Assembly (NCBI GenBank): GCA_902525295.1
Contig: CABZGR010000007.1
Coordinates: forward strand, 1 to 34,750
DNA length: 34,750 nt
DNA from: an uncultured Pelagibacteraceae bacterium
GTDB taxonomy: Bacteria; Pseudomonadota; Alphaproteobacteria; Pelagibacterales; Pelagibacteraceae
Reading direction: 5' to 3'
Position numbers and translations under genes: made by a program. Shown piece by piece: positions 2-2,348 of this stretch; position 1 is the first letter of the stretch; every line of letters starts with the position of its first letter. The notes beneath the pieces are model-generated. The model searched no databases, was not told the origin of the DNA, and worked only from the letters and a program-made list of their open reading frames with translations.

Positions 2-376
2 AACAAGGAATTGGTTGGGAATTTACCTTTTTTGTTAAAAAGATCTGGTCATCTATTGTCTAAAATGCGTTTTGTTTCAGCACAATTAGATGGATATATT
101 ACAAATGATGTTTGGTTAAAAAATGCAAGACATGCAAATCTAATGGCAAAAAAATTAAGTGATGGTTTAGTTTCTAGCAATCAAGTGAAACTTGAATATC
201 CAACAGAAGCAAACGAAGTTTTTGTGAAACTCCCAAAAAAAATGGTCGAACATCTCAATTCAGAAGAGTATATGATGAGTAAAGATGAATTGACTGGTAA
301 AACAGTTAGATTAGTCACTGCTTGGAATACTAAAGATAGCGAAGTGGATGAGTTTTTGAATACTATTTTCAATTAA
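2..376 (+). CDS. ltaE: Low-specificity L-threonine aldolase, C-terminal part (5' end outside window)
   Basis: Frame is open from base 2. Contains KRSGHLLSKMRFVSAQLDGYITNDVWLKNARHANLMAKKLSDGL, characteristic of alphaproteobacterial threonine aldolases (PLP fold type I). The TTG at 11 is probably internal. Confidence 0.8.
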   Translation, partial: NKELVGNLPFLLKRSGHLLSKMRFVSAQLDGYITNDVWLKNARHANLMAKKLSDGLVSSNQVKLEYPTEANEVFVKLPKKMVEHLNSEEYMMSKDELTGKTVRLVTAWNTKDSEVDEFLNTIFN

Positions 377-382
377 ATTTAC

Positions 383-409
383 TTGAAATTAAACCCTTCA
401 AATTATAAA
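383..409 (+). promoter_or_regulatory. Possible sigma70 promoter for the micro-ORFs
   Basis: TTGAAA (383-388), 15-bp spacer, TATAAA (404-409). It would give a start site almost at the ATG (418). The spacer is short and the background is AT-rich. Confidence 0.3.
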
Positions 410-417
410 AGAAACTA

Positions 418-477
418 ATGGAAGCTGTAGCACTATTAGTAATAATAATATTATTTGCGACTGGAAGCTTTAATTAA
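418..477 (+). CDS. Micro-ORF 1, 19 aa hydrophobic peptide MEAVALLVIIILFATGSFN
   Basis: ATG at 418-420, TAA at 475-477. One predicted membrane-spanning stretch. Similar in sequence to the adjacent micro-ORF at 488. No strong SD, but a possible promoter lies just upstream. Confidence 0.45.
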   Translation: MEAVALLVIIILFATGSFN

Positions 478-487
478 AAGGAGAAAT

Positions 488-547
488 ATGGAAGTTGTAG
501 CTGTATTAGTTCTAGCTTATTTAGCATATAAACAATTTTTAGACTAA
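488..547 (+). CDS. Micro-ORF 2, 19 aa hydrophobic peptide MEVVAVLVLAYLAYKQFLD
   Basis: ATG at 488-490, TAA at 545-547, preceded by AAAAGGAGAAAT (good SD and spacing). Same length and N-terminal motif (ME-VA-LV) as micro-ORF 1. Followed by a hairpin plus T-run. Confidence 0.55.
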   Translation: MEVVAVLVLAYLAYKQFLD

Positions 548-574
548 TTTTATTAATTAGTTTGGATTTTTTTT
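541..574 (+). terminator. Possible rho-independent terminator after micro-ORF 2
   Basis: ACTAATT (543-549)/AATTAGT (555-561) perfect 7-bp stem with TTATT loop, extendable by one G-T and one A-T pair, then TTGGATTTTTTTT. AT-only stem, so weak. Confidence 0.4.
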
Positions 575-784
575 AATATCTTCGATAAAATTTAATACTT
601 CATTAAATTTATCGTCTCCGATATCTTTGTAACTAGCATTAAATTTATTTTTTACACATATTGCTACATGCGCGTATGGATTTCTTCCTTTTGGATGATT
701 TGGGTGATTAGGTAATTGACCATCCAAATAATCGCCAGCTTCCTGTATCATTTTCCAAAGTTTACGGGCATTTTCTGGCGACAT
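557..784 (-). CDS. Small conserved-looking hypothetical protein, 75 aa, resembling the ORF6C-type C-terminal domain of phage-like antirepressors
   Basis: Complete ORF. The segment AHVAICVKNKFNASYKDIGDDKFNEVLNFIEDI loosely matches the pattern 'alk.kFgv.syKdIp...f.ealefI'. Family assignment is tentative. Confidence 0.55.
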   Translation of the reverse strand: MSPENARKLWKMIQEAGDYLDGQLPNHPNHPKGRNPYAHVAICVKNKFNASYKDIGDDKFNEVLNFIEDIKKNPN

Positions 785-831
785 ACATACTAAATCTTTG
801 CTTTATCTAAAAAAGTTCTTGTTATAGTTCT

Positions 832-859
832 AGTATACTACAAAATCCTATATTACCAA
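832..859 (-). promoter_or_regulatory. Possible promoter for the 75-aa ORF
   Basis: Minus strand TTGGTA (859-854), 16-bp spacer, TATACT (837-832). The -10 lies in a perfect palindrome TAGTATACTA (831-840) within the longest intergenic gap of the window (785-949). Confidence 0.3.
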
Positions 860-949
860 ATATTGAACTGGGAGTCTAATTACTTAAAATACTATTTATT
901 TTAGATTTTCGTTTTTAATATTTTTTACTTTTTTTGATATTATCAAACA

Positions 950-2317
950 TCAGTCTTGTGTTGGGTTTACATCCCATGACTTTTTAGAAAAACTGTGAAA
1001 AAGTTTACCAACGATAATTCTAAAAGTTGTGACTGGGTTATTTAGTCCGTAACCCATTTTCATATATTCTTGTGGTGAAAAATGCCTCGAAAAAATTTTC
1101 ACCCCATTGTGAGAAATTTGTCTAAATTTCCCGTTAACAAGAGTTGTATTAGCTCCGTATTCATTTTTGAGAGTGAATCTAAGCGTCGCAGCTGAAAGTG
1201 AAATATCAGCATCCGCATTACATCCATCTTTAACCTTCAATCCTTCACGATAGCTTAAAGTTAAATTCACATCGAGGTCATGTAAGTAAAATTCTATCGG
1301 ATTTATAAATTTTAATCTTTCTAGAAACTGTGGCCCTATTAAAAAGTGCTTGAATATTTTCTGTCTAAACAAGTCATAGGTTTCTTTAATTTCTTTCAAC
1401 GAAACTATATTTTTATTCTTGGAGTGTGGCTTTATGTCATTGAATAAGTTAACCCAATGTTTTATATTGTGGTCTCTGTCTGCCACTTCTTGATTTAATG
1501 GTTTCTTTAAATCTAAAATATCCCAAGGTTTAAGAACCAACAAATTGCTGGTAATTTTTTCTCTTTCAAATAGAGTAGCCACATCATTTGGAGTATTTTG
1601 GGAGTCGTTGGTATGAAAGTTTTCTTGGTCGCTAAAATACACAAAAGATGCAAATGGAATAACTGCTTTTGGCTTAAACCTTTTCACTTGAAATGATATT
1701 CTCTTAAGTTTTTCTCGTGCTGAACTTTTGCGCATTTGAACTTCACTTGGATTACCCATCCAATTTGCATAACCAAATTGAGTAAGGAGTAAGTCGATAT
1801 TGTTGGTATATTTTTTGTAGCTTTTAGTAACTCGCTTTGTCGCTATTTCATCATCCACAACACAATCGTTAATGTTTAGTATGGAAAAGTTGTTGATCAT
1901 CGTTAGACTATAAGAATCTCCACCTAAATATGGAAACGTTACAATGGATAATTCAGAGTCTAGAATTTGTGGTTTATCGTTACATTCACTAACAGTAAAA
2001 CCCATTTTTCTTATAAATTGCGCAACACGCCCATCTAATGTTTTCTGAAAGATAAATTTAACTTCTGGTTGACTTTCTTTCAGAGCATTTATGAATGGCA
2101 CTGAAAAATGATCTGAATGCTCATGAGACAGCCATATATATTTTGCTTTATTAATTTCTGCTAAATATTTTATCAGCGTTTTATTATTTATAGATTTGTC
2201 CAATAAAGACCAACCATTATCAAATGCACCACCTTCTACCCATGGGTCAACAATTAGTAAAGACTTTTCAGATTCTACTAAATAACAAGCATGATTTATA
2301 AATGTAAGATTAGCCAT
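950..2317 (-). CDS. Metallo-beta-lactamase-fold hydrolase (UlaG/CMAH-like) with C-terminal extension
   Basis: 455 aa; LSHEHSDHF (HxHxDH zinc motif), DPWVEGGAF, long C-terminal region with NEYGANTTLVNGKFR. Confidence 0.75.
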   Translation of the reverse strand: MANLTFINHACYLVESEKSLLIVDPWVEGGAFDNGWSLLDKSINNKTLIKYLAEINKAKYIWLSHEHSDHFSVPFINALKESQPEVKFIFQKTLDGRVAQFIRKMGFTVSECNDKPQILDSELSIVTFPYLGGDSYSLTMINNFSILNINDCVVDDEIATKRVTKSYKKYTNNIDLLLTQFGYANWMGNPSEVQMRKSSAREKLKRISFQVKRFKPKAVIPFASFVYFSDQENFHTNDSQNTPNDVATLFEREKITSNLLVLKPWDILDLKKPLNQEVADRDHNIKHWVNLFNDIKPHSKNKNIVSLKEIKETYDLFRQKIFKHFLIGPQFLERLKFINPIEFYLHDLDVNLTLSYREGLKVKDGCNADADISLSAATLRFTLKNEYGANTTLVNGKFRQISHNGVKIFSRHFSPQEYMKMGYGLNNPVTTFRIIVGKLFHSFSKKSWDVNPTQD

Positions 2318-2348
2318 TTCTCCTATCTATCTTAAGTCAAAACACTCT

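Follow-up and report, generated by a model that had tools for sequence, protein, structure and literature searches.

Two consecutive 19-codon reading frames in the window (the whole stretch of DNA analyzed here, 34,750 nucleotides of a contig that indeed belongs to SAR11 [Pelagibacter]) are, judging from their substitution patterns, both maintained as proteins by purifying selection. ORF A (418..477, + strand) encodes MEAVALLVIIILFATGSFN and ORF B (488..547, + strand) encodes MEVVAVLVLAYLAYKQFLD; each starts with ATG and ends with TAA, and both lie where a preliminary description of this DNA had placed them. The products should be single-span membrane micropeptides, and by comparison across genomes they constitute a new family among small membrane proteins and a unit specific to one branch of SAR11. 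Annotation almost never captures proteins of fewer than 20 residues, and SAR11 stands near the extreme of genome reduction among free-living cells; that two 19-residue genes are under selection there means that such a coding layer is missed even in compact genomes.

The pair sits between the 3′ end of a gene for a PLP-dependent, threonine-aldolase-like protein of the Beta_elim_lyase family (2..376, + strand) and a convergent gene of 75 aa (557..784, − strand) that had no family match in Pfam or NCBIfam. The aldolase gene is truncated at the window edge, the window starting inside it; a full-length relative matched PF01212 at 5e-55. ORFs A and B stand at the 3′ end of an operon, and the same strand carries nothing further downstream. 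Because the median intergenic length in Cand. P. ubique is 3 nt (PMC2704228), the gap of about 180 nt between the convergent genes is unusual in itself.

Coding constraint and start signals

We compared 20 distinct Pelagibacter loci at the homologous site (window counted, duplicates removed), 11 with A and B and 9 with A alone. ORF A has 18 or 19 codons, differs in length only at its very end, and has no internal stop or indel in the 20 loci; ORF B has 19 codons and no internal stop or frameshift in its 11. The frames are intact while their flanks are rich in indels, the upstream stretch varying in length between 34 and 46 nt and the linker from A to B between 10 and 19 nt. Changes in ORF A, pooled over independent pairs, fell 22 times at first, 5 times at second, and 28 times at third codon positions (position 2 deficit, P = 2.8e-5), and this protection of position 2 is how hydrophobic residues persist while their identity changes. 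Third codon positions hold 11 of the 14 changes in ORF B (P = 7e-4). The codon-level check that had been proposed for the pair thus came out in favor of coding for both frames.

Compared with neutral placement of the same changes, the protein similarity of A was too high in four of six pairs (P ≤ 0.00015) and in a fifth (P = 0.007); the sixth pair (P = 0.17) has only 3 changes and is hence uninformative. By this BLOSUM measure, A was conserved beyond the neutral simulation in most of the compared pairs. For ORF B, the protein-similarity test taken by itself was not significant (P values of 0.05 to 0.31), because B has changed so little. What is kept in A is mainly hydrophobic character together with ME, A5, and A14-T15, and what is kept in B is the sequence ME-VVAVLV-x-AY-x-AY-xx-FL. 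Between the deep lineages L066 and L101, 2 of 18 synonymous sites of ORF B had changed, compared with 128 of 301 (0.43) in the aldolase gene (P = 0.005), and the other locus pairs gave no significant difference; this hints at an extra RNA- or DNA-level constraint on B. Both differences between the nearly identical 60-base copies of ORF B in these two lineages are synonymous, and the DNA flanking the copies has diverged.

The SD sequence reported for the second ORF is present (AAGGAG, 478..483, + strand), and a purine-rich G run (AAGGAG, CAGGGGG, or CGGAGGG) precedes B in 11 of 11 pairs despite variation of the linker. The start codon of B is kept too, with GTG, still a valid start, in place of ATG at one locus (L108). 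A 30-aa form of B initiated at TTG 455 was rejected on account of a stop codon directly 5′ of the ATG in L066.

ORF A has no SD in the A+B loci. Promoter-like hexamers (CTTGAA, 16 nt, then TATAAA, TATAAT, or TGTAAA) end 7 to 8 nt 5′ of its ATG in three deep lineages; in the window the putative promoter occupies 382..409 (+ strand), with CTTGAA at 382..387 and TATAAA at 404..409, the latter ending 8 nt 5′ of the ATG. Identical bases among the three lineages number 10 of 12 in the hexamers versus 6 of 16 in the spacer (Fisher P = 0.019), and motifs of this type were not enriched across the window as a whole. Transcription from such a site would begin on or right beside the ATG and give a leaderless message, so a promoter of its own and a leaderless mRNA are probable for ORF A; the promoter evidence is suggestive. 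The A-only clade lacks CTTGAA and instead has an SD before A (AAAGG or AGGAGG), which would fit A having come to be translated from the aldolase message.

Leaderless translation of a very short ORF has a precedent in the 14-aa trpL of the alphaproteobacterium Sinorhizobium (PMC10117765). Ribosome profiling of Sinorhizobium meliloti found unannotated ORFs of fewer than 30 aa, some leaderless and some encoding membrane proteins (PMC10117765), in which respects A and B resemble them; A and B are not 5′ leaders, however, but sit at the 3′ end of an operon.

Distribution and descent of the pair

A peptide HMM searched against 399 genomes of the genus found matches in 10 genomes at E ≤ 6.8e-7 (next best, 0.014), and the strong matches were confined to the A/B site, where the closest relative of the window (G000:C7) is G184. 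A degenerate 60-base pattern applied to GTDB r220 genomes recovered additional Pelagibacteraceae loci, including L066 and L101. A scan of the family (347 genomes, 14 genera) gave matches at E ≤ 0.01 in the genus Pelagibacter only, and, at the limited sensitivity of a 19-residue probe, neither the rest of the family nor GTDB species genomes nor viral contigs yielded a homologue. A profile search of the PDB with the peptides returned nothing meaningful.

Several candidate matches were set aside. Seven pattern matches in IMG/VR included no homologue, and a viral origin was rejected. The MEVIALLVPKFLLPVESMI-type matches from the GTDB scan were judged unrelated: their upstream sequence is constant, they have no SD, and their C-terminus is neither B-like nor A-like. 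A match to ORF B DNA in G076 was a chance match inside another gene, and those weak matches of the A1 HMM (E of 0.01 to 1) that we inspected were unrelated ORFs or pieces of longer frames.

Both ORFs are cleanly absent from 25 more genomes of the same clade, in which the aldolase and convergent genes overlap by 4 bases with nothing in between; in most genomes that lack the pair, the overlap with the aldolase stop measures 4 to 8 bases. One copy of ORF A (L076, from single-cell genome AG-905-K02) starts with ATT, and the near-identical L003 has ATG; the ATT copy is perhaps dead or perhaps a single-cell sequencing error. Relatives that had lost the start or frame were named beforehand as evidence against coding, and no frameshift occurs in the 20 loci.

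A tree was built from the aldolase gene only (IQ-TREE), and changes were placed on it by parsimony. L066 branches first and then L101; support was 99/94 for the A+B clade of the window, 93/75 for the clade of A-only genomes and genomes without the pair, and 100/99 for the latter as one clade, while the A-only group was not firmly one clade. Three changes explain the labels, namely, gain of the pair, loss of B, and loss of A. The order in the sister lineages, as reconstructed, is A+B, then A alone, then none, and since these lineages lost B and then A, the pair is dispensable. The earlier argument that keeping two copies would suggest function holds as to purifying selection on both ORFs, but the pair is not universally kept. 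Genomes with A+B, with A alone, and with neither form a nested, natural knockout series in which function can be sought through co-changing membrane systems or traits.

The near-identical 5′ DNA of the two ORFs, on which the proposal of a tandem duplication had been based, was borne out. Of the 24 bases in codons 2 to 9, A and B share 19 in the window and 18 and 15 in two deep relatives; among 136 hydrophobic eight-codon segments of window genes, matches averaged 10 and never exceeded 15, and shuffles of the A/B peptides gave P values of 0.001 to 0.01. Because this sharing exceeds chance for hydrophobic coding segments, A and B likely stem from a tandem duplication, which would be old, since the two are already distinct in every A+B locus. 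Later conversion between them possibly occurred in the window's clade. We rejected a reading of A and B as one shifted gene, the A-to-B frame offset varying between lineages.

Taken as one history, a two-peptide membrane system of 18 to 19 residues per peptide may have arisen once inside SAR11, duplicated into a fast-evolving hydrophobic A and a sequence-locked B, combined leaderless with SD-led initiation, and been dismantled in sister lineages, B first and A second; we put this forward tentatively, with appreciably less than even confidence. A further proposal, that AT-rich intergenic DNA of this Pelagibacter clade gave rise to the pair de novo, with duplication and selection following, likewise falls well short of even confidence. 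T-rich sequence readily encodes hydrophobic helices, and in yeast new membrane proteins have been described as arising by a thymine-rich route (PMC7005711); the pair is restricted to one clade of one genus, and in outgroup genomes the site has next to no intergenic DNA. However, horizontal transfer is an alternative route of gain, a 19-residue query is blind to remote homologues, and no noncoding ancestral sequence was found. The A/B locus can serve as a case in which to study how membrane genes are born from AT-rich DNA.

Membrane character and possible roles

The description of both products as hydrophobic, single-span peptides agrees with GRAVY values over the whole peptide of 1.75 to 2.16 (about 2.0) for A and 1.27 to 1.51 for B. 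As is characteristic of small single-span membrane proteins, one hydrophobic stretch of about 15 to 22 residues makes up most of each peptide, and codon-position bias, SD, and intact frames give both the appearance of translated sequences conserved as proteins. A length of 19 aa is at the lower limit for a membrane span and counts against the membrane-helix reading.

The explanation that best accommodates these results, in which we place not quite even confidence, is a small lineage-specific unit that makes two single-span inner-membrane micropeptides, most likely accessory or regulatory helices. A would have its own promoter and be translated from a leaderless start, and B would be translated from its own SD on the same message. 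Both would enter the inner membrane as short helices, and aromatic residues would form a belt at one end of B. The weakest step is the last, in which A and B might jointly assist or regulate, as helices, a larger membrane protein whose gene lies elsewhere; lineages with different membrane machinery could then lose B and later A. No partner is adjacent, the neighbors (a deiminase-like enzyme, the PLP aldolase, and the 75-aa gene) including no membrane complex.

The single-helix proteins CydX, AcrZ, KdpF, and MgtS are about 30 to 50 aa. Like A and B they are small and single-span, and sequence plasticity has been shown for CydX, a bd oxidase subunit that tolerates many substitutions (PMC6005532). 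Their genes usually belong to the partner's operon or lie close to it, or else are widely conserved, whereas A and B have 18 to 19 aa, are restricted to one clade, and lie beside an aldolase gene.

A type-I-toxin-like role, in which A or both peptides would be membrane peptides comparable to Ibs or Zor and would be kept in check by an RNA of the same locus, antisense or structured, is the main functional alternative, and we consider it unlikely. The Ibs/Sib and Zor/Orz systems of Escherichia coli share with A/B very short hydrophobic single-helix peptides (IbsC has 19 aa, the size found here), tandem copies (zorO/zorP being an example), and a tolerance of altered sequence provided that hydrophobicity is preserved (PMC8309996, PMC7192591); the likeness is a descriptive one. 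A has no positive charge, and B was lost before A, as would be expected were B the harmful partner. The A/B locus differs from these systems, however, in having no detected antitoxin RNA: an Rfam search of the locus gave no match at E values up to 1, and promoter-like sites were not more frequent than in shuffles. B is conserved in sequence, beyond hydrophobicity, with an aromatic C-terminal half, and A survives without B in nine loci, preceded by a strong SD, a situation that would be strange for a toxin under no regulation. A constraint limited to hydrophobicity, as seen in A, fits an accessory helix and a membrane-active toxin alike, given the plasticity of CydX and the continued toxicity of IbsC frameshift mutants (PMC7192591). 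We slightly favor the accessory or regulatory helix, a weak preference drawn from the sequence conservation of B, the persistence of A alone with a good SD, and the lack of a visible antisense RNA.

RNA signals and surroundings of the locus

An AT-rich hairpin (538..566, + strand; −8.7 kcal/mol, z = −2.96) followed by a T-run (567..574) overlaps both ORF B and the convergent gene at their ends and is a possible weak terminator. The preliminary description was right that a hairpin and T-run follow the pair, but they are not a clean dedicated terminator, because the 3′ arm and the T-run are the final codons of the convergent gene. A conserved dedicated terminator was rejected, the element being made of two coding ends and its fold weaker in two deep relatives.

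That the peptides are irrelevant and the locus is a 3′-UTR or RNA element with coding-like conservation is very improbable. The low synonymous change in B between L066 and L101 and the hairpin at B's end speak for it; against it, synonymous and first-position changes in A are plentiful with second positions fixed, the SD is kept, the frames are free of indels, and the 377-575 region as a whole folds no better than shuffles (z = −0.19). Chance ORFs, although short ones are common (199 ATG ORFs of 14 to 30 aa in the window), are refuted in practice by 20 loci conserved with coding signatures.

Upstream of the pair (L101:6338-7453 and L041:366-1415), the operon consists of a weak arginine-deiminase-like protein (PF02274) and the aldolase, whose best NCBIfam match, the GntG family, scored 69 bits, far below the cutoff of 230. 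Beyond the 75-aa convergent gene (785..2348 in the window), gene content differs among close relatives: the window carries a gene for a metallo-beta-lactamase fold (950..2317), L037 has superoxide dismutase directly, and L039, L066, and L101 have other genes again. This stretch looks like a variable insertion site adjoining the A/B locus.
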